Below, piece by piece: positions 16,225-58,919 of a DNA stretch of 64,000 nt. A program made the translations under genes and the position numbers. Source of the stretch: Novibacillus thermophilus (GTDB lineage: Bacteria > Bacillota > Bacilli > Thermoactinomycetales > Novibacillaceae). The first letter of the stretch is position 1; each line of letters begins with the position of its first letter. The stretch lies in contig NZ_CP019699.1 in assembly GCF_002005165.1 (NCBI RefSeq), forward strand, positions 1,798,001 through 1,862,000, given 5' to 3'. Under the pieces are notes generated by a model. The model ran no database searches. It saw only the letters and a program-made list of their open reading frames with translations, and was not told where the DNA came from.

Positions 16225-17388
16225 TCACGAAACATCTGGTTGCGAAACAGGTCCCGTGTCGTGCGCGTTTGACTTTACGATGACGGAGCGGTTAAGCTCC
16301 CGTATGGTCCGTTTGCCAGTGAGTGCCAAGGAAACGTCAATGTCGGAAATCAAGTGTTGAAGCACGTGACGGACTCCTGCTTCACCGCCGGCAGCCAAGC
16401 CGTAAATGTAGGGGCGTCCGAGGAGAACAGCGTCAGCCCCCATCGCGATGGCTTTAATGACGTCGGGACCGCGGCGTACTCCGCTGTCGAACAGTACGGG
16501 AATGCGGTTCTGTACGATGTCACACACGGGTTGAAGGGCGTCCAGTGCAGCGACCGCCCCGTCGAGCTGGCGTCCGCCGTGATTGGAGACGATGAGGCCG
16601 TCGACGCCGCAGTCAAGGGCGAGTGACGCATCGTCCGGGTGAAGGACTCCTTTGAGCAAAATGGGTAATGGCGTTATCTCGCGCAAGCTGGCCAAATCGC
16701 CCCATGTTAGTCCCGGGTGAAACACAATGTTTAACAAGTGTTCCAGGGCAGCTTTTCGGTCAACTTCAGGAGGTTTTGTCAGTTTTTCCCGAAATACTGG
16801 ATCATGAAAGAAGTTGGCGCTACCCATGCCCAGTTTCAGAGGGGAGTAGCCGGTGGAGAGGTCGCGTTCGCGCCACCCGAGGAGGGCGGTGTCGACGGTG
16901 ATGACTATGGCTGAGTAACCAGCCGCTTCGGCGCGCTGTACCAGGCTTTTCGTGACATCCATATCGTTTGACCAGTACAGTTGAAACCAATGTGGGGAGG
17001 CGCCTAATTCCGATGCGATTTGCTCCAAGGTGAAAGTTGAAACGGTGCTGGCAATAAACGGCACCCCTAAAGCTTTTGCTGCACGGGCTGACGCCAGTTC
17101 ACCGTCGGGGTGAACAATACCTTGCATCCCGATTGGCGCGAGCAAAAAAGGGGTCGCCATCGCTTGACCCCACAACGATACGGACATATCGCGGTGAGTG
17201 ACATCTGTGAGCACCTGCGGAAGCAATCGCCAACGGTTAAACGCCTCTTCGTTGGCTTTCATCGTCTGTTCCGACCCCGCACCACTGGCGACATACGTGA
17301 ATGCTTCACGGTCTATCGCTTGTTTCGCCCTTTGCTTCCAGTCAGCGTACGAGTACGGAAAAGGAAGGTGTTTTTCAACAGGAGACAC
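16225..17388 (-). CDS. FMN-dependent alpha-hydroxy-acid oxidizing protein
   Basis: The 387-residue TIM-barrel flavoenzyme belongs to the lactate oxidase/monooxygenase, glycolate oxidase and L-lactate dehydrogenase (LldD) group. Key blocks are ATPFLLAPIGMQG, WFQLYWSND, ILLKGVLHPDDA (FMN lysine) and the active-site SNHGGRQLDG with catalytic His. VLFDSGVRRGPDVIKAIAMGADAVLLGRPYIYGLA binds the FMN phosphate. There is no membrane segment. It oxidises a 2-hydroxy acid to the 2-oxo acid; the acceptor (oxygen or quinone) cannot be decided. It lies 22 bp downstream of metI on the same strand, so it may be a distal member of the SAM-riboswitch operon, which would be unusual. Confidence 0.87.
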   Translation of the reverse strand: MSPVEKHLPFPYSYADWKQRAKQAIDREAFTYVASGAGSEQTMKANEEAFNRWRLLPQVLTDVTHRDMSVSLWGQAMATPFLLAPIGMQGIVHPDGELASARAAKALGVPFIASTVSTFTLEQIASELGASPHWFQLYWSNDMDVTKSLVQRAEAAGYSAIVITVDTALLGWRERDLSTGYSPLKLGMGSANFFHDPVFREKLTKPPEVDRKAALEHLLNIVFHPGLTWGDLASLREITPLPILLKGVLHPDDASLALDCGVDGLIVSNHGGRQLDGAVAALDALQPVCDIVQNRIPVLFDSGVRRGPDVIKAIAMGADAVLLGRPYIYGLAAGGEAGVRHVLQHLISDIDVSLALTGKRTIRELNRSVIVKSNAHDTGPVSQPDVS

Positions 17389-17410: not shown

Positions 17411-18085
17411 CTAGTCTTTCTTCATTTTGGCCGCCAGGCGATTGCCTATGGACTGTAGACCCTGAACGAGGATGATCAGCATGATGACGGTGACGTACAT
17501 GACGTCCGCCTCGTAGCGGAGATAACCGTAACGGTAAGCGAGGTCGCCCAACCCGCCGGCACCGACAAGGCCAGCCATGGCCGTCGCCCCGATGAGGCCG
17601 ATCGTGGCAATGGCCAACCCGAGGACGATTGACGGACGCGCCTCTCGGATCATCACGTGCCAAATGATGGACTTCGTTGACACGCCCATCGCTTCGTACG
17701 CTTCCAAAACGCCCTGGTCCACTTCTAACAGGGACGATTCCATGAGTCGGGCGATATACGGTGCCGTGTACACGACGAGGGGGACTAACACGCCTTTGAC
17801 ACCGATTGTCGTCCCGACGAGGAACTTCGTGAACGGCAGGATGAGGAACAGCAACACGATGAACGGAATCGAGCGTATGACGTTAATCCCCACGTTCAGT
17901 ATTTGATAGACGACCGGATTTGCCAGCCTATGTCCTGGGCGGGTTAAGACGAGCAAAACGCCGAGGGGCAAACCGATCAAGACGGACATGGAAAGGGCAA
18001 TCCCGACCATTTGAAAAGTTTGGAGGGTCGCTTCCCAGATGACGCCTCCCCATTGGTTAAGAAATGCGCTTATGTTTGCGATCAT
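17411..18085 (-). CDS. metI: Methionine ABC transporter permease
   Basis: The 224-residue protein has five membrane helices. It has the MetI pattern: GGVIWEATLQTFQMVGIALS, LPLGVLLVLT, NVIRSIPFIVLLFLILPFTKFLVGT and the EAA-loop ALGVSTKSIIWHVMI-like segment (EAMGVSTKSIIW), ending in LVGAGGLGDLAYRYGY. It overlaps the end of metN by 29 bases. With MetN and MetQ it imports D- and L-methionine. Confidence 0.92.
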   Translation of the reverse strand: MIANISAFLNQWGGVIWEATLQTFQMVGIALSMSVLIGLPLGVLLVLTRPGHRLANPVVYQILNVGINVIRSIPFIVLLFLILPFTKFLVGTTIGVKGVLVPLVVYTAPYIARLMESSLLEVDQGVLEAYEAMGVSTKSIIWHVMIREARPSIVLGLAIATIGLIGATAMAGLVGAGGLGDLAYRYGYLRYEADVMYVTVIMLIILVQGLQSIGNRLAAKMKKD

Positions 18086-19106
18086 GCCACTCCACTCCTT
18101 TGACTTGTACGCCCTGCTCTTTCAAGTAACGAATCGCTTTGACCGCCTCTTCGTCCTCTCCTTGGAAATGCACAGTTAAACGACCGTAAGGGTGTTCTTT
18201 CAACTGGGTGATCTGCCCGGACAGAACGTTTGGGTAAACGTCGAACTTTTTGCTGACTGCGGCGAGAGCCGGTTCTCCCGATGTCGTTCCGACAAAGGAC
18301 AGTGTGGCGATAGGTCCTTTATTTCTCAAAGAGTCTAGCAATGACTGCGGCAAGTTGTGGCCGAACAGGCTGTCGACAAATTTTTTCGTCGTGTCGTGTT
18401 GCGGGGCCGTGAACAGGTCCAATACAGAGCCGGATTCGACGACTTCTCCGCTCTCAATCACCGCTACGCGATCACACACTTTTTGGATGACCGGCATTTC
18501 GTGCGTGATGAGCAAGATGGTGATGCCGAAATCGCGGTTAATTTTGAGCAGTAAATCGAGGATGGCTTCCGTCGTGTCCGGGTCGAGGGCGCTTGTCGCT
18601 TCATCGCTCAGCAACACTTCCGGTTCGTGGGCCAGGGCGCGGGCGATGGCGACGCGCTGTTTTTGCCCACCGGACAGCTGGGCGGGGTACGCATCGCGTT
18701 TGTCTTCCAGCCCGACAATCGCCAAATACTTCTCGACGCGCGCCTGAATCTCGTTTTTCGGAACACCGCTTAATTTGAGCGGTAGGGCGATGTTCTCATA
18801 CACTGTCGCCGTTTTAAGCAAGTTGAACCCTTGAAAAATCATCCCGATTTTTTTGCGCGCTTCTTTTAATTTTCCGTCAGGTAAGGCAGTCAACTCGGTG
18901 CCTCCGACGTACACTTTGCCTTCTGTCGGGCGTTCCAACAAGTTGACACAGCGGATGAGCGTGCTTTTCCCGGCTCCGCTGTAGCCGATGACACCGAAGA
19001 TTTCGCCGCGCTTTACGTCCAGCGACACATGGCTGAGAGCGTACAGCGGTCCTTTTTTTGTCTGAAACACTTTCGATACGTTTTGCAGTTGAATCATGCG
19101 GTTCAC
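18057..19106 (-). CDS. metN: Methionine ABC transporter ATPase
   Basis: The 349-residue protein has Walker A GYSGAGKST, signature LSGGQKQRVAIARAL, Walker B VLLSDEATSALD and the switch His in ITHEM. The C-terminal 100 residues form a NIL (ACT-like) methionine-sensing domain (LSFVGTTSGEPALAAVSKKFDVYPNVLSG), which mediates trans-inhibition by intracellular methionine. It is followed by overlapping metI and preceded by metQ. Confidence 0.93.
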   Translation of the reverse strand: MNRMIQLQNVSKVFQTKKGPLYALSHVSLDVKRGEIFGVIGYSGAGKSTLIRCVNLLERPTEGKVYVGGTELTALPDGKLKEARKKIGMIFQGFNLLKTATVYENIALPLKLSGVPKNEIQARVEKYLAIVGLEDKRDAYPAQLSGGQKQRVAIARALAHEPEVLLSDEATSALDPDTTEAILDLLLKINRDFGITILLITHEMPVIQKVCDRVAVIESGEVVESGSVLDLFTAPQHDTTKKFVDSLFGHNLPQSLLDSLRNKGPIATLSFVGTTSGEPALAAVSKKFDVYPNVLSGQITQLKEHPYGRLTVHFQGEDEEAVKAIRYLKEQGVQVKGVEWHDRKHKRIS

Positions 19107-19164: not shown

Positions 19165-19995
19165 TTACCAAGACGGTATGACAGAGCCCGAGAACTCTTC
19201 TTCTACGAACTGCTTCACTTCGTCAGAATGGTACGCCTTGATCAGCTTGTCGAGGACCGGGTCGTCTTTGTTTTCCGTGCGAACGGCGATAATGTTCACC
19301 CAAGGGGAGTCTTTCGGTTCGATGGCAATCGCGTCCTCCGCTGGCACATATCCGGCTTCCATCGCATAGTTGGTGTTAATGGCTGCAGCGGTTAATTCAC
19401 TCAGTTGCCGTGGGATTTGGGCTGCTTCCAGTTCGACAAACTCCAAGTTGAGGGGATTTTCTTCTATGTCCTGAACGGAGGCCGTCACGCCGGCGCCTTC
19501 TCTTAATTTAATCAATCCGGCATCTTCAAAGAGAAGCAACGCGCGGGCGCTGTTTGTCGGGTCGTTTGGCAGTCCGAGGGTGTCACCTTCTTTTAGTTCG
19601 CGGATGTCTTTAATTTTTTCAGAATAGATTCCCATCGGGAAATTGACGGTGTCAGCAACGTGAGACAAATCCAGGTTGCGCTCAGCGACGAAGTCATCCA
19701 GATACGGCTTGTGCTGATAACTGTTCGCATCCAAGTCCCCTTCGGCCAGGGCCGTGTTCACCATAACGTAGTCCGTGAACACTTCAATTTGAATGTCAAG
19801 GCCGTCTTTTGCCGCCACTTCCTTCACTTTTTCCATGATTTGTTCGTGAGGGCCGGCGGTCACGCCGATGATGAGTCTGTCTTCGCTCAAGGTGTTGCTT
19901 TCTTCGCTTGAAGCTTCTTCGCCAAGATCTCCGCCGCAAGCAGAAAGCGTGACGGTGAAAATTAGCGCGATGATGAAGATGCGTGTTTTTTTCAT
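19165..19995 (-). CDS. metQ: Methionine-binding lipoprotein
   Basis: The 276-residue protein has a lipoprotein signal (ALIFTVTLSAC, Cys about residue 20) and a NlpA/MetQ domain: LIIGVTAGPHEQIMEKVKEVA, DYVMVNTALAEGDLDANSYQHKPYLDDF, NFPMGIYSEK and GLPNDPTNSARALLLFEDAGLI. It captures methionine for MetNI outside the membrane. It follows the SSS symporter gene by 55 bp with no terminator visible, so it is read from the SAM-riboswitch promoter. Confidence 0.93.
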   Translation of the reverse strand: MKKTRIFIIALIFTVTLSACGGDLGEEASSEESNTLSEDRLIIGVTAGPHEQIMEKVKEVAAKDGLDIQIEVFTDYVMVNTALAEGDLDANSYQHKPYLDDFVAERNLDLSHVADTVNFPMGIYSEKIKDIRELKEGDTLGLPNDPTNSARALLLFEDAGLIKLREGAGVTASVQDIEENPLNLEFVELEAAQIPRQLSELTAAAINTNYAMEAGYVPAEDAIAIEPKDSPWVNIIAVRTENKDDPVLDKLIKAYHSDEVKQFVEEEFSGSVIPSW

Positions 19996-20050: not shown

Positions 20051-21670
20051 CTAAGCGATGGGCTTTTCACAATGCTCCTTGTTCCAGATGGATGTGGACG
20101 TATGTGTCAGTTGAATTAGCGCAATGAACACCGCGACGAACATACTGAATATGGTCAAGCCTAAAAGCCCTGAGGTATAGAGTGTTTCAAATGCCAGTAT
20201 GTTGACAAATGCTAAAGCGGCTGTCGCGATGACTCCGAACCAAGCGAGCCACGAATCGGGGGAGCTCACCCGCCATTGGCCCCGATGTTCCCACAAACTT
20301 GTGACTATCATTAAAGCTAAATTTATTCCCATACCTACCCACACCGGATGGGTGTTAAGGAAAAAGTGATCGGGTGACCATTCGCCCAAGTGGTACCACA
20401 ACAAACCTGATGCAAATCCTCCAACCATTGAGATCACAGCGCCTCCCTTCGTCACGAGCGGCCAGAACAAGGCGCCTAACACCGGTGCGAAAGTCGCCGA
20501 ATTGCGCACGGTCCAAGCGAGTATATTCCACCACGCGGACTGTTCAGTGCGCAGAGTGCCAAACAGGATCATTAAACCTGTCAGTAACAACAGCGACCAC
20601 TTCGTATAGCGAACGAGTCGATCATTGGTCGCGCGGGGATTTAAAGCACTGCCGACATCCCTGCCTAAACTGGTCGCCCCGGAAAACTGACACGGCGCTC
20701 CCCAGCTCAGGGCACAAGCCCATATGCCGAGGAAAAACAGTCCGGCTAAAGGCGCAGGGAGGACTTGCATGAGATACTGGGGAATGGCGATCAAGCCCTT
20801 GCCTGCGTCTGGGACGACCACGGCAGCGGCCATCCCGAAAAGCACACCGAGGATCACAAACGGTATCCCCATGACGGCTGCCATTTTTAGTCCCTTCTGG
20901 CCTTCTTTTGCGGTTCGGCAGGACAACGCCATCTGGAAGGCCGCCTGGGCCAACAATACATTGACGAGAAATGTGCCGAACCACGCAACGATCACTTGTA
21001 AACCGGCATTTCCCCATGTAAACATGTCTGGTTGTGTTTGGGCTAGCTGAACCAGACCCTCTATTCCCGGGTTGACAAAAAAAGCGATTAACCCCACCAC
21101 AAACATCAGTGAGAATACGACTGCATTGACGCTTTGCGTAAAGGCAACTGACCACATTCCACCTGCTTGCAAATAGATGAAGAGCAAGAGGGATGTCAAC
21201 GCAACAGAAAAAAAGAGGGGGATGCCGGTAAACACATGGATAGCAGAAGCAAAAGCGATGGCCGTCGCCACTGACCACATCGGAAAAGAGAATGCTGTAA
21301 TGGCACCACTGATCAGTTTCGCCCAACGCCCGTAATAATCACCAATGAGGCCCGAGATCGTCACCAGCATCCGTTCGCGAAACGGTGCGAGCAGAATAAA
21401 GGCGATAATTAACACTTGCACCGTTTCAGCGACTCCATACCAAACAGCTGATATGCCTTTCAAGTATGCTAATTCTAAAATGGAGATGTAAGTTGAGCCG
21501 GAAAACAGTCCGGTGATACAGAGGGCGACGACAAGCGGCGAAAATTGACGGCCGCCGACAAAAAAGTCCTCTCCGCGAGCTGCTTTACGCCTCGCGACAT
21601 AACCGGAAAAGATTAACAGAAACGTATAGACAACAGCTAATCCTATCAGCCACACACCGTATTCATTCAT
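20051..21670 (-). CDS. Sodium:solute symporter (SSS family), SAM-riboswitch controlled
   Basis: The 539-residue protein has about 13 membrane helices. SSS-family features include ARGEDFFVGGRQFSPLVVALCITGLFSGSTY near the N-terminus, the LLAPFRERMLVTISGLIGDYYGRW loop and GAPCQFSGATSLGRDVGSALNPRA. It is the first gene after a SAM (S-box) riboswitch and is followed by metQNI. That position predicts a sulfur-related substrate such as methionine, S-methylmethionine, a sulfoxide or a sulfonium compound. The known MetT transporter belongs to a different family (NhaC-like), so this would be a distinct uptake route. The substrate is inference from regulation only. Confidence 0.85.
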   Translation of the reverse strand: MNEYGVWLIGLAVVYTFLLIFSGYVARRKAARGEDFFVGGRQFSPLVVALCITGLFSGSTYISILELAYLKGISAVWYGVAETVQVLIIAFILLAPFRERMLVTISGLIGDYYGRWAKLISGAITAFSFPMWSVATAIAFASAIHVFTGIPLFFSVALTSLLLFIYLQAGGMWSVAFTQSVNAVVFSLMFVVGLIAFFVNPGIEGLVQLAQTQPDMFTWGNAGLQVIVAWFGTFLVNVLLAQAAFQMALSCRTAKEGQKGLKMAAVMGIPFVILGVLFGMAAAVVVPDAGKGLIAIPQYLMQVLPAPLAGLFFLGIWACALSWGAPCQFSGATSLGRDVGSALNPRATNDRLVRYTKWSLLLLTGLMILFGTLRTEQSAWWNILAWTVRNSATFAPVLGALFWPLVTKGGAVISMVGGFASGLLWYHLGEWSPDHFFLNTHPVWVGMGINLALMIVTSLWEHRGQWRVSSPDSWLAWFGVIATAALAFVNILAFETLYTSGLLGLTIFSMFVAVFIALIQLTHTSTSIWNKEHCEKPIA

Positions 21671-21830
21671 TAAATGTCATTCCCTTCACGTGATCGGCCC
21701 TTACACTCTAGATTGTCGGGCTTTCGTTTATCCGTCATTTGGTGCTCTCACCGCTTTTTCATATAGGATAAGTATGCATTTACAGTTGATGAGACATCTT
21801 CATCCTTCCTGCAAGCTGTTAAAATGAGAA

Positions 21831-21856
21831 AGCCTCTCTGCAAAGACAGAGAGGCT
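21831..21856 (-). terminator. SAM-riboswitch terminator hairpin
   Basis: On the minus strand AGCCTCTCTG pairs with CAGAGAGGCT and is followed by a T-rich run. It is the expression platform of the adjacent SAM aptamer. Confidence 0.75.
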
Positions 21857-21875
21857 AGCGACCCGATCATCACCT

Positions 21876-21990
21876 CTCTTATCTTTCAAAACCTAAACGG
21901 CTTTGCAGGAATTGGCACCTTTTTGCACAGGAACCGTGCAAAGGTTGCCGGGTTTCATCGGGCCAGTCCCTCCACCTCTCTGGATAAGAG
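21876..21990 (-). ncRNA. SAM-I (S-box) riboswitch aptamer
   Basis: On the minus strand the P1 arms CTCTTATC (21990-21983) and GATAAGAG (21883-21876) pair perfectly. Between them lie the S-box consensus blocks AGAGGTGGAGGGACTGGCCC, GATGAAACCCGGCAACC and AAGGTGCCAATTCCTGC. S-box RNAs bind S-adenosylmethionine and promote termination. It sits about 200 bp upstream of the SSS symporter-metQNI operon. Confidence 0.95.
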
Positions 21991-22013
21991 AATGTCTATC
22001 AGATTTTAAAACC

Positions 22014-22042
22014 AGTATAGTCACCCCCTAAACTGTTGTCAA
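22014..22042 (-). promoter_or_regulatory. SigA promoter of the SAM-riboswitch operon
   Basis: On the minus strand TTGACA (22042-22037) and TATACT (22019-22014) are separated by 17 bases, just ahead of the aptamer. Confidence 0.8.
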
Positions 22043-22064: not shown

Positions 22065-22093
22065 TTGCCAGGGTGTAAGGTTTGTGCTATAGT
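22065..22093 (+). promoter_or_regulatory. SigA promoter of the TPP-riboswitch operon
   Basis: TTGCCA (22065-22070), a 17-base spacer and TATAGT (22088-22093) precede the TPP aptamer by about 10 bases. It is divergent from the SAM-riboswitch promoter. Confidence 0.75.
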
Positions 22094-22102
22094 CACATTA
22101 AA

Positions 22103-22195
22103 CAGAGGGGAGCTGGGAGAGCCCGGCTGAGAGGGTACCCCCAAAATGGTACCGACCCGTTAAACCTGATCTGGATAATGCCAGCGCAGGGATCA
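22103..22195 (+). ncRNA. TPP (THI-box) riboswitch aptamer
   Basis: The core contains GGGGAGCTGGG, the CTGAGAGGGTACCC block, GACCCGTTAAACCTGATCTG and GGATAATGCCAGCGCAGGGA, all conserved in thiamine pyrophosphate riboswitches. It controls the following thiamine-precursor transport operon. Confidence 0.95.
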
Positions 22196-22238
22196 TAGTC
22201 GTCATCTGCTTGTGGACAGCAGACATGTGACGTTGCGC

Positions 22239-48960: not shown

Positions 48961-50525
<1,565 letters not shown>

Positions 50526-50677
50526 CGGAGTAAAAAAAGGCGTTCGGCTTGTTCGTTTAGTTTTGAGGGAGACATTCTCAGAAGAGAATGGTCTCTGCCG
50601 TCCCGTGGAGGGGCGGATGTGTTCCTTGAAAACTGGATCGGAAGCATTCACCGGGATGACGAGAGTCATGTCGAGAA

Positions 50678-53711
<3,034 letters not shown>

Positions 53712-53746
53712 AGAGAATGCTTCCGACCAGTTTTGAGGGAATGCTG

Positions 53747-53863
53747 TCTGGTGGCCATAGCGGAGGGGACACACGCGTACCCATGCCGAACACGACCGTT
53801 AAGCCCTCCAGCGCCGATGGTACTCGGGGCGAGAGCCCCTGGGAGAGTAGGTCGCTGCCAGGC
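53747..53863 (+). rRNA. rrf: 5S ribosomal RNA
   Basis: About 117 nt, starting CTGGTGGCC and ending GCTGCCAGGC, which pair. CCCATGCCGAACACG and AGAGTAGGTCGCTGCC are diagnostic. Confidence 0.95.
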
Positions 53864-53897
53864 GAAAATGTGAAAATAATAATTTCACCTCTAACAC

Positions 53898-53990
53898 GGA
53901 GAGGTGTCCGAGTTGGCCGAAGGAGCACGATTGGAAATCGTGTAGGCGGGTAACCCCGTCTCGAGGGTTCGAATCCCTCCCTCTCCGCCA
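53898..53990 (+). tRNA. tRNA-Ser (anticodon GGA)
   Basis: 93 nt with a long variable arm and encoded CCA. The acceptor GGAGAGG pairs with CCTCTCC; the anticodon loop is TTGGAAA. Confidence 0.96.
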
Positions 53991-54005
53991 TCTCTGAACT
54001 GGTAA

Positions 54006-54081
54006 GGCCCGTTGGTGAAGCGGTTAACACACCAGCCTTTCACGCTGGCATTCAGGGGTTCGAATCCCCTACGGGTCACCA
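54006..54081 (+). tRNA. tRNA-Glu (anticodon TTC)
   Basis: 76 nt with encoded CCA; acceptor GGCCCGT with ACGGGTC; anticodon TTC. Confidence 0.96.
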
Positions 54082-54082
54082 C

Positions 54083-54158
54083 GGACGGTTAGCTCAGCTG
54101 GGAGAGCACCTGCCTTACAAGCAGGGGGTCGGCGGTTCGATCCCGTCACCGTCCACCA
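54083..54158 (+). tRNA. tRNA-Val (anticodon TAC)
   Basis: 76 nt with encoded CCA; acceptor GGACGGT with ACCGTCC; anticodon TAC. Confidence 0.96.
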
Positions 54159-54161
54159 TGC

Positions 54162-54238
<77 letters not shown>

Positions 54239-54247
54239 ATATCCCTT

Positions 54248-54324
54248 GGAGCTGTGGTGTAGAGGCCTAACATGCCTGCCTGTCACGCAGGAGATCGCGG
54301 GTTCGAATCCCGTCAGCTCCGCCA
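54248..54324 (+). tRNA. tRNA-Asp (anticodon GTC)
   Basis: 77 nt with encoded CCA; acceptor GGAGCTG with CAGCTCC; anticodon GTC. Confidence 0.96.
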
Positions 54325-54345
54325 TCCTTTACTTTTCGTCAAGTG

Positions 54346-54375
54346 TTGACTTACTAAGCGCAAACATGTTAATAT
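54346..54375 (+). promoter_or_regulatory. Internal promoter of the tRNA cluster
   Basis: TTGACT (54346-54351), 18-base spacer, TAATAT (54370-54375), in the 153-bp gap between tRNA-Asp and tRNA-Phe. The rest of the gap holds a GGAGGTACTCCTCC-type hairpin (about 54413-54426). Confidence 0.55.
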
Positions 54376-54477
54376 GGTATTCGTCACTGCAGTCGTATTT
54401 AAGCCAGAAAATGGAGGTACTCCTCCTTTCCTGAAAGCGAAAAAAGCTCGCTAAAACCTGAAAACCCAACGCAGCGC

Positions 54478-54553
<76 letters not shown>

Positions 54554-54567
54554 TTTTAACTCTGTTT

Positions 54568-54643
<76 letters not shown>

Positions 54644-54657
54644 GTGGTTAGAAATAT

Positions 54658-54742
54658 GGAGGGATACCGAAGTGGTCAAACGGGGCAGACTGTAAATCTG
54701 CTGGCGTTGCCTTCGAAGGTTCGAATCCTTCTCCCTCCACCA
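54658..54742 (+). tRNA. tRNA-Tyr (anticodon GTA)
   Basis: 85 nt with a long variable arm and encoded CCA; anticodon GTA. Confidence 0.96.
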
Positions 54743-54797
54743 TGGATAGCTCATCCTTATCAGCGTCTGTCTGCCCGCATCATGGGGCACCTTGTGT

Positions 54798-54871
54798 AGG
54801 GGCGTAGTTCAATGGTAGAACAGTGGTCTCCAAAACCATCGATGCGGGTTCGATTCCTGCCGCCCCTGCCA
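54798..54871 (+). tRNA. tRNA-Trp (anticodon CCA)
   Basis: 74 nt with encoded CCA; acceptor AGGGGCG with CGCCCCT and discriminator G; anticodon CCA. Confidence 0.95.
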
Positions 54872-54877
54872 TAATAC

Positions 54878-54954
54878 GGCGGCCGTGGCGAAGTGGTTAA
54901 CGCACCGGATTGTGGCTCCGGCATTCATGGGTTCGATTCCCATCGGTCGCCCCA
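54878..54954 (+). tRNA. tRNA-His (anticodon GTG)
   Basis: About 77 nt including the extra G-1 opposite C73 that marks tRNA-His, with encoded CCA; anticodon GTG. Confidence 0.95.
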
Positions 54955-54968
54955 CAGCATTTGAATTT

Positions 54969-55043
54969 TGGGGAGTAGCCAAGTGGTAAGGCAACGGACT
55001 TTGACTCCGTGATGCGCAGGTTCGAATCCTGCCTCCCCAGCCA
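54969..55043 (+). tRNA. tRNA-Gln (anticodon TTG)
   Basis: 75 nt with encoded CCA; acceptor TGGGGAG with CTCCCCA; anticodon TTG. Confidence 0.95.
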
Positions 55044-55049
55044 TAATAA

Positions 55050-55124
55050 GCGGAAGTGGCTCAGGGGTAGAGCATCGCCTTGCCAAGGCGAGGGTCGCGG
55101 GTTCGAATCCCGTCTTCCGCTCCA
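55050..55124 (+). tRNA. tRNA-Gly (anticodon GCC)
   Basis: 75 nt with encoded CCA; acceptor GCGGAAG with CTTCCGC; anticodon GCC. Confidence 0.96.
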
Positions 55125-55141
55125 TTTTATCCCGCTTAAGC

Positions 55142-55215
<74 letters not shown>

Positions 55216-55263
55216 CTTATAGCGTGATCATTTTGTGAGAGGCAGAGATGCGACACTTATTTC

Positions 55264-55353
55264 GCCGGGGTGGCGGAACTGGCAGACGCACAGGACTTAA
55301 AATCCTGGGGAGGGTTAACCTCCGTGAGGGTTCGAGTCCCTCCCTCGGCACCA
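55264..55353 (+). tRNA. tRNA-Leu (anticodon TAA)
   Basis: 90 nt with a long variable arm and encoded CCA; anticodon TAA. Confidence 0.95.
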
Positions 55354-55357
55354 ATAG

Positions 55358-55445
55358 GCGGACGTGGCGGAATTGGCAGACGCGCAAGATTCAGGATCTT
55401 GTGGTCATTACGACCGTGGGGGTTCAAGTCCCTTCGTCCGCACCA
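55358..55445 (+). tRNA. tRNA-Leu (anticodon CAG)
   Basis: 88 nt with a long variable arm and encoded CCA; anticodon CAG. Confidence 0.95.
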
Positions 55446-55458
55446 TTTAACAATGCGT

Positions 55459-55535
55459 GTGCCCTTAGCTCAGCTGGATAGAGCGTCTGACTACGAATCA
55501 GAAGGTCGGGAGTTCGAATCTCTCAGGGCACGCCA
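55459..55535 (+). tRNA. tRNA-Arg (anticodon ACG)
   Basis: 77 nt with encoded CCA; acceptor GTGCCCT with AGGGCAC; anticodon ACG, whose A34 is normally deaminated to inosine. Confidence 0.95.
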
Positions 55536-55548
55536 TTTTATTTAAAAT

Positions 55549-55634
55549 GCCGAAGTGGCGGAATTGGCAGACGCGCACGACTCAAAATCGTGTGGTCTTT
55601 GACCATGTGGGTTCGACTCCCACCTTCGGCACCA
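55549..55634 (+). tRNA. tRNA-Leu (anticodon CAA)
   Basis: 86 nt with a long variable arm and encoded CCA; anticodon CAA. Last gene of the contiguous cluster. Confidence 0.95.
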
Positions 55635-55654
55635 TATTGATGTCCTCATCTAGG

Positions 55655-55680
55655 GTTTCAGTGTACGCTGAAACTCTTTC
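55655..55680 (+). terminator. Terminator of the rRNA/tRNA operon
   Basis: GTTTCAG and CTGAAAC form a stem followed by TCTTTC. Confidence 0.75.
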
Positions 55681-55725
55681 ATTGTAGCAAACCTTTGGCT
55701 TTCTACATCTCTCGGTTAACGGTAT

Positions 55726-55754
55726 TTGCGATGGGAGACAAATGCTGGTAAAAT
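55726..55754 (+). promoter_or_regulatory. Promoter of tRNA-Pro
   Basis: TTGCGA (55726-55731), 17-base spacer, TAAAAT (55749-55754), 23 bp before the tRNA. Confidence 0.65.
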
Positions 55755-55777
55755 AATACGTGACAGTGAAAAGGTTA

Positions 55778-55854
<77 letters not shown>

Positions 55855-57784: not shown

Positions 57785-58519
57785 GTGACGATGTGTGATC
57801 CGGTCATGATTAACGTCGGACCCCTTTTTCTCCCCTTGCACGTCGTTGCAATCGCGCTGTTCGTTTTTATATCGGTTTGGCTGGCGGAAAGGTTGTCCCC
57901 GGAATCCCGTTTCGTACGGAAAACCGTCATCGAATGGCTGCCGACTGCATGGTTGATGGCCCTCGTCGTATACAAATTCAGCCCGGCGCTGTTCAACCCG
58001 GGTCAAGTGTGGCGAAACCCGGCTATATTGCTCTATCTGTCAGGAACGGACGTATCTTTTCTCTTGGCAATTCTGCTGACAGCCTGTTGGCTGGCGTGGA
58101 AAACTTTTCATTCTCCGTTACTTTGGGCTACAGCTGACGTTATGGCCGTTTCTGGTTTGTTGAGCGTCATCGCCTACAACGTTTTGTTTAAAGACTTGGG
58201 AAATACCACCACATTGTGGCAGATTTGGGGGAACGGCCATGATGTTTACCATCCGCTGCACGTATACCGAATTATTCTGTTACTGCCGTTGGTCATATGG
58301 ATCTTCCGCAAGTGGAGGCGGTTAGAAAACGGACGTGTTTTTAGCCTGACCTCACTCTGGATCGGGACTGTGTACATCGTGACGTCGTTTGCCGACTTCC
58401 ACACCGGAAGTTTTAAGTTTTTGTTGACGAAAGAGCAGTGGGCTGGTGTTATATTGGCACTGGCAGGTTTCACAGCTAAAGTTTACCAGGATCAAAGGAG
58501 AAGCGAGAGCAAATTGTGA
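57785..58519 (+). CDS. Polytopic membrane protein in the thiol-disulfide operon
   Basis: About 244 residues; GTG 57785 or ATG 57791 could start it. About seven helices are predicted (for example LHVVAIALFVFISVWLAERL, VSFLLAILLTACWLAW, IILLLPLVIWIFRKW). The segment NGHDVYHPLHVYRI faintly resembles the HP-containing loop of prolipoprotein diacylglyceryl transferase (Lgt), but the catalytic pattern is not clear. It lies eight bases after ccdA and is probably part of the same envelope redox pathway. The function is unknown. Confidence 0.7.
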   Translation: MTMCDPVMINVGPLFLPLHVVAIALFVFISVWLAERLSPESRFVRKTVIEWLPTAWLMALVVYKFSPALFNPGQVWRNPAILLYLSGTDVSFLLAILLTACWLAWKTFHSPLLWATADVMAVSGLLSVIAYNVLFKDLGNTTTLWQIWGNGHDVYHPLHVYRIILLLPLVIWIFRKWRRLENGRVFSLTSLWIGTVYIVTSFADFHTGSFKFLLTKEQWAGVILALAGFTAKVYQDQRRSESKL

Positions 58520-58535
58520 GATGGGGGAATGCTTC

Positions 58536-58919
58536 ATGGAACTTAAAAGGGAAGAACGTGGATTTGTGACTGAAACTGCGTACGGCTCCTTGCATGTATC
58601 GTCTGACGAACAGCAAGGATTTCGCCCCTTCCAGTTGATGGCTGCATCCGTTGCAGGATGTAGCGCCATCGTATTAAATAAAGTGATGGCAAAGATGCGG
58701 ATACCATGTGACGACATAAAGGTTTCGGTTCAAGTGGAGCGGAATGAGGCGGAAGCGAACCGCATCGAAAGGTTACAGCTGCACTTTGTCATTCGCGGAC
58801 AAAACCTGAAAAAGGATAAGGTTGAGAGGGCGATGGCGTTGGCTCGTAAAAATTGCCCGATGGTTCAGTCTGTTAAAAACAGTATAGATGTCACAGAAAC
58901 GTTTGAAATTGTTGAATAA
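58536..58919 (+). CDS. OsmC/Ohr-family protein
   Basis: 127 residues from ATG 58536, eight bases after GGGGGA. It has the OsmC pattern with two conserved cysteines: FRPFQLMAASVAGCSAIVL and RKNCPMVQSVKNSIDV. Members reduce organic peroxides or persulfides with these thiols. It follows the membrane protein closely and suits the thiol/redox context. Lack of the Ohr-type flanking pattern makes the YhfA-like OsmC branch more likely. Confidence 0.85.
   Translation: MELKREERGFVTETAYGSLHVSSDEQQGFRPFQLMAASVAGCSAIVLNKVMAKMRIPCDDIKVSVQVERNEAEANRIERLQLHFVIRGQNLKKDKVERAMALARKNCPMVQSVKNSIDVTETFEIVE

Follow-up and report, generated by a model that had tools for sequence, protein, structure and literature searches.

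S-box-controlled SLC5-fold transporters, usually paired with an OsmC-type protein, as probable importers of a sulfur-containing nutrient

The S-box leader and the genes of the locus

The window analysed here is a stretch of 64,000 nucleotides from Novibacillus thermophilus in which, on the minus strand, a riboswitch leader precedes an SSS gene encoding a 539-amino acid transporter of the SSF family (SLC5 fold; positions 20051 to 21670; PF00474, 71 bits, cut-off 22.8). The leader opens with a sigma-70-type promoter, TTGACA-17-TATACT, at 22014 to 22042, which matches the consensus at 11 of 12 positions and from which transcription is inferred to start at about 22006; no other promoter-like site was found on the minus strand between 17000 and 22300. 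The SAM-I (S-box) riboswitch aptamer (21876 to 21990; RF00162, 97.2 bits against a gathering threshold of 44.4, E 3.3e-22) is complete, with model positions 1-108 covered and P1 to P4 present. It is followed at 21831 to 21856 by an intrinsic terminator made of an 11-bp stem and a T-rich tail, TTCTCATTTT, with a folding energy of -18 to -19 kcal/mol. The 5' half of the terminator can pair instead with the 3' strand of P1 and the linker, giving an antiterminator (21842 to 21889) that folded in ViennaRNA with -21.3 kcal/mol (region 21836-21895). This layout is the usual off/on design of S-box leaders, and SAM-dependent termination is predicted from it. An earlier note on this DNA had reported an S-box, a terminator and a promoter ahead of the SSS gene, and all three are present on the minus strand where it placed them.

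The same intergenic region also serves a second, divergent riboswitch operon. A TPP riboswitch (RF00059, 62.7 bits, window 22065-22209, plus strand) has its own promoter, back to back with that of the S-box, and heads an operon for a thiamine-binding protein/NMT1-type ABC transporter. Farther along the plus strand, at 48963-55851, the window holds a complete rRNA operon followed by an 18-gene tRNA cluster.

Downstream of the SSS gene, on the same strand, are genes for a MetQ-type lipoprotein (19165 to 19995; PF03180, 303.8 bits; TIGR00363, 235.5 bits, cut-off 228.85), a MetN-type ATPase with a NIL domain (18057 to 19106; PF00005, PF09383) and a MetI-type permease (17411 to 18085; PF00528; PRK10782, 188.6 bits, cut-off 212). 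The MetN protein scored 399 bits with TIGR02314 against a cut-off of 499.7, and three other S-box-linked MetN proteins scored 375-387. The gap between the SSS gene and metQ is 55 bp long and contains a ribosome-binding site, and neither a terminator-like nor a promoter-like site was found in it on the minus strand. The statement of the earlier note that metQNI follows without an intervening terminator is thus borne out, no promoter intervening either, and metQNI is probably cotranscribed with the SSS gene. The same-strand run is longer than that note stated, since a gene for an FMN-dependent 2-hydroxyacid dehydrogenase (16225 to 17388; PF01070, 434 bits) starts 22 bp after metI and is possibly part of the same transcript. 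As a guess, this enzyme might, by oxidation, turn the methionine hydroxy analogue, 2-hydroxy-4-methylthiobutanoate, into the keto acid of methionine.

Family and predicted fold of the transporter

None of the named transporter models in NCBIfam recognised the SSF protein, every cut-off being missed by a wide margin. The superfamily model TIGR00813 gave 87 bits against a curated cut-off of 184, PanF 70.9 against 328, PutP 21.8 against 515.5 and PRK10484 (YidK) 75.7 against 401, while the ActP models gave no match at E 0.001. There was also a weak match to an Nramp profile, below its cut-off. The AlphaFold2 model (pLDDT 89.0, pTM 0.87) has the SLC5/LeuT fold, with SGLT, SiaT and CHT1 as its top structural matches. 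The nearest structure is that of the choline transporter CHT1 (Z 42.7, rmsd 2.9 A over 456 residues, 18% identity), which likewise ranks first by profile among the solved structures (E 1.5e-17).

Sodium sites and substrate pocket

The residues of CHT1 that form its Na2 and Na3 sites and its choline cage have been defined (PMC11589582), and all five side-chain ligands of the two sodium sites are replaced in the SSF protein. The Na2 serines S346 and S347 align to W323 and G324, on which two alignments agree, and the Na3 residues D188, D349 and S350 align to Q179, P326 and C327, with D349 corresponding to P326 in both alignments. The replacement is not a peculiarity of one protein: these positions are non-canonical in all 32 aligned sequences, drawn from the clade and its sister clade, and W323, P326 and Q179 are invariant in 32/32. 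As a control, three SSS paralogues (this genome's second SSS, the corresponding protein of Terrihalobacillus and one from Aneurinibacillus) were inspected by eye and retain the Na2 Ser/Thr pair and the aspartate of TM5. Because of the non-canonical Na2/Na3 residues we file the protein by its fold and profile, and not as a sodium symporter. The proposal of a Na+-driven uptake route is undercut; judged from these residues, classical sodium coupling through Na2 and Na3 is unlikely, and the protein may instead use a different sodium site, couple to protons or work by facilitated transport.

The cage of six aromatic residues that holds choline in CHT1 (W62, Y67, Y91, W141, W254, W406) is incomplete. 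Pocket aromatics are kept at F56 (CHT1 W62), Y/F61 and W132 (CHT1 W141), W254 corresponds to A241 or a gap, and Y91 is replaced by Glu82, which is conserved without exception in the near clade and lacking in the sister clade. The equivalent of W406 varies with the alignment (W381 or W386) and was left out of the evidence.

Spread of the clade and its linkage to the S-box

Relatives of the transporter were collected from a scan of named genomes, which gave 15, and from about 1,590 further genomes; 29 were kept after removal of duplicate loci. The clade spans four phyla, and is rare and patchy: matches were found in 7 of 398 genomes of Bacilli (at high identity), in 2 of 197 from the family to which a Paenibacillus belongs, and in 2/296, 1/289, 1/198 and 10/199 genomes of other groups, several matches in these counts being the named genomes themselves.

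A same-strand S-box lies upstream of the transporter gene in 20 of the 29 relatives (L010, L013, L014, L017, L018, L022, L023, L024, L042, L044, L045 and L108-L116), which belong to Bacillota, Actinomycetota and Bacteroidota and include Melghirimyces, Aneurinibacillus, Terrihalobacillus, Cerasibacillus, Membranihabitans (Bacteroidota) and Nesterenkonia (Actinomycetota). Kin are present among them, so that L108-L111, and likewise L022 and L023, are not independent samples. With at most 12-19 S-boxes per genome of about 4 Mb, about 0.2% of genes would be expected by chance to have a same-strand S-box in the 1 kb upstream of them. In the Bacillota members of the clade a T-tailed hairpin begins 2-25 nt past the aptamer; in Nesterenkonia and Membranihabitans no terminator was found close behind it, so control there may be translational.

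The nine relatives without an S-box comprise three Paenibacillus-type, four alphaproteobacterial and two other actinobacterial loci, and suggest that the role of the transporter may be wider. No sub-threshold SAM riboswitch was detected up to E 1 in six of the S-box-less loci, and in two of the alphaproteobacterial carriers the whole genome is without any S-box. No plasmid-borne relative was found.

In the tree, the near clade and a sister clade are set apart with full support, and the protein of the window groups with that of Melghirimyces. S-box linkage follows the same division, being seen in 0/9 sister loci against 20/29 in the near clade (Fisher p 3e-4). The sister SSF clade itself (L046-L055; 29-32% identity; two families of the same class) has neither an S-box nor an adjacent OsmC gene, and shares the loss of the Na2/Na3 ligands.

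The earlier note had allowed that the protein might fall within a proline, pantothenate or acetate clade having no S-box elsewhere. This is not so: the cut-offs of the named families are missed and the S-box recurs across phyla, from which we conclude that there is indeed a clade of S-box-controlled transporters that had not been assigned before. The linkage to metQNI, which the note had proposed to look for in homologues, is present in the window only and in none of the relatives examined.

An OsmC-type gene beside the transporter

The neighbour that is conserved is a same-strand gene for an OsmC-type protein, adjoining the transporter gene in 25 of the 29 relatives and in all four phyla. It stands before or after the transporter gene, often with a 4-bp overlap, in the orders OsmC-SSS, SSS-OsmC and OsmC-OsmC-SSS, Membranihabitans having two OsmC genes. 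The SSS-adjacent proteins that were scanned scored 49.9-78 bits with PF02566 against a cut-off of 27.5, and both redox cysteines are present in those that were aligned; the OsmC genes of the high-GC loci L016, L019 and L021 were found by tblastn. Since the links to S-box and OsmC persist as gene order varies, they point to function and not to one frozen, inherited operon.

Among the S-box carriers, the window, L113 and L115 have no adjacent OsmC gene, and the operon of the window contains none. Three OsmC genes are present in this genome, none of the type that is the usual partner in the clade. One of YhfA type (window 58446-58919, plus strand) lies downstream of ResA- and CcdA-like genes, and a second CcdA-OsmC arrangement is found elsewhere in the genome (G000:C1:3175299, L176).

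The S-box regulon of the genome

Nine S-boxes are present in this genome. Besides the one in the window, they precede a second metN-I-Q operon, a MetY-like gene (read by eye) and, as a tandem pair at G000:C1:880347-880630 (L003, L005), an ssu-like ABC transporter. Another precedes genes for OsmC, SfnG (a full-score dimethylsulfone monooxygenase, 586.9 bits) and a flavin reductase (L056 1932-4420, G000:C1:2896432 onward), an arrangement from which use of sulfones under SAM-riboswitch control is predicted. Two S-box-linked monooxygenases of NtaA/DmoA type were also found, one with a reductase and the other followed by a second SSS gene (L059 3211-4716, in the locus L059 1501-4716, G000:C1:3146831 onward) that has a counterpart in Terrihalobacillus (L141). 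The regulons of Terrihalobacillus, Nesterenkonia and Cerasibacillus are similar, with gene names read by eye. Such contents place the transporter in a setting of sulfur acquisition at large, and not of methionine transport alone.

Co-occurrence with particular pathways was counted in carrier and non-carrier genomes. SfnG was found in 3 of 25 carriers against 4 of 55 non-carriers (p 0.67), a background level that lends no support to a sulfone route in particular. This genome lacks MmuM (NF007020), and carriers show no enrichment for it (2/25 against 7/55), so that S-methylmethionine, one of the cargoes suggested earlier, is not favoured.

Discussion

The S-box in three phyla and the usual OsmC neighbour in four make it probable that this SLC5-fold clade imports a sulfur-containing nutrient under low SAM, with OsmC as a redox partner in most species; our confidence in this reading is a little better than even. 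At low SAM the aptamer would remain unliganded, the antiterminator would form and the transporter would be transcribed, here with metQNI behind it; at high SAM, P1 would be stabilised and the terminator would end transcription. In most relatives a two-cysteine protein of OsmC type would be translated together with the transporter and may serve the same pathway by redox chemistry, whether by reducing the compound brought in or by clearing peroxides that stem from the oxidative use of organosulfur compounds.

Other work offers partial parallels. In Bacillales and other groups various S-box genes have been listed whose roles in cysteine or methionine metabolism or transport are only putative (PMC3766115). 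OsmC was the most induced gene of the SAM-riboswitch response in sulfur-limited Candidatus Pelagibacter ubique, where OsmC and SAM-riboswitch genes are induced together, but no pairing with an SSS transporter appears in the portion of that report drawn on here (PMC5069961). In sulfur-starved P. aeruginosa, Ohr/LsfA rise (PMC12581299). Neither an SSS protein nor an SSS and OsmC pair tied to an S-box was found in the literature covered; the 2004 paper on the methionine regulon of Gram-positive bacteria lay outside that scope, and an earlier mention is possible.

As to the cargo, the more specific half of the sulfur-nutrient explanation, in which an oxidised organosulfur source (a sulfone, sulfonate, disulfide or thiosulfate-like compound, and not methionine) is imported and processed inside, is a tentative possibility. 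It accords with the OsmC partner and with S-box regulons, here and in related genomes, that abound in monooxygenases for organosulfur compounds and in the transporters that go with them, but the SSS operon lacks a monooxygenase in every relative examined and SfnG co-occurs with the transporter at background. The second S-box-controlled SSS (L059, and L141 of Terrihalobacillus) shares S-box control and the SSF family with the transporter of the window, but is of a different subfamily (23.6% identity over the aligned region), has a canonical STTD ion motif and adjoins an NtaA/DmoA monooxygenase.

The main reading of the earlier note, in which the protein is an additional, cation gradient-driven importer of methionine that complements the MetQNI encoded behind it, we regard as rather unlikely. 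The methionine transporters known to be controlled by S-boxes are MetNIQ, of the ABC type, and the NhaC-like MetT; methionine transport is typically under such control, and the same SAM-I riboswitch with a transcription terminator is used here. MetNIQ and MetT are unrelated to the SSF family, and the clade described here has OsmC as its conserved partner. A shared transcript with metQNI is probable at this locus, and Glu82, at the position of CHT1 Y91 and invariant in the near clade only, could hold an amino group. However, metQNI is linked in no relative, the genome already has another S-box metN-I-Q operon, the canonical Na+ ligands are missing and the OsmC pairing would be left unexplained. 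Three of these points, the metQNI linkage that relatives lack, the additional metNIQ operon and the partnership with OsmC, make us lean away from methionine.

A methyl donor of the sulfonium or quaternary ammonium type (S-methylmethionine, DMSP, choline or betaine) feeding methionine synthesis is an improbable cargo. The fold is shared with CHT1/sfCHT (SLC5A7, the human and bacterial high-affinity choline transporter), but identity to CHT1 is 16-18%, against 34-38% for bacterial CHT homologues in the screen of PMC13220886. Among solved structures CHT1 comes closest by profile and by fold, and F56, Y/F61 and W132 are retained, but Y91 and W254 are changed (to Glu, and to Ala or a gap), and MmuM is missing from this genome and shows no enrichment in carriers. 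About as improbable is a cargo tied to SAM only indirectly, such as lipoate, some other thiol cofactor on which OsmC draws, or a metal: SLC5A6 carries lipoate, OsmC/Ohr proteins use lipoylated reductants and the Nramp profile matched weakly below its cut-off, but a lipoate or metal gene was recognised in none of the neighbourhoods examined.

Returning to sulfur nutrient import, its fullest form would be a branch of SLC5 without both sodium sites, with organosulfur cargo, proton-coupled or facilitated transport, OsmC as a dedicated cytoplasmic redox partner and SAM-riboswitch control, that is, a module of two genes for acquiring sulfur, spread among phyla. As a whole this form is speculative, and we think it unlikely that every part of it holds.

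At its general strength, the proposal gives an orphan transporter clade of four phyla a function class that can be tested, namely uptake of a sulfur nutrient during SAM shortage. It also draws attention to a group that carries a sodium-symporter annotation yet is without the sodium ligands, and the conserved OsmC partner bears on why OsmC/Ohr proteins increase in sulfur starvation.
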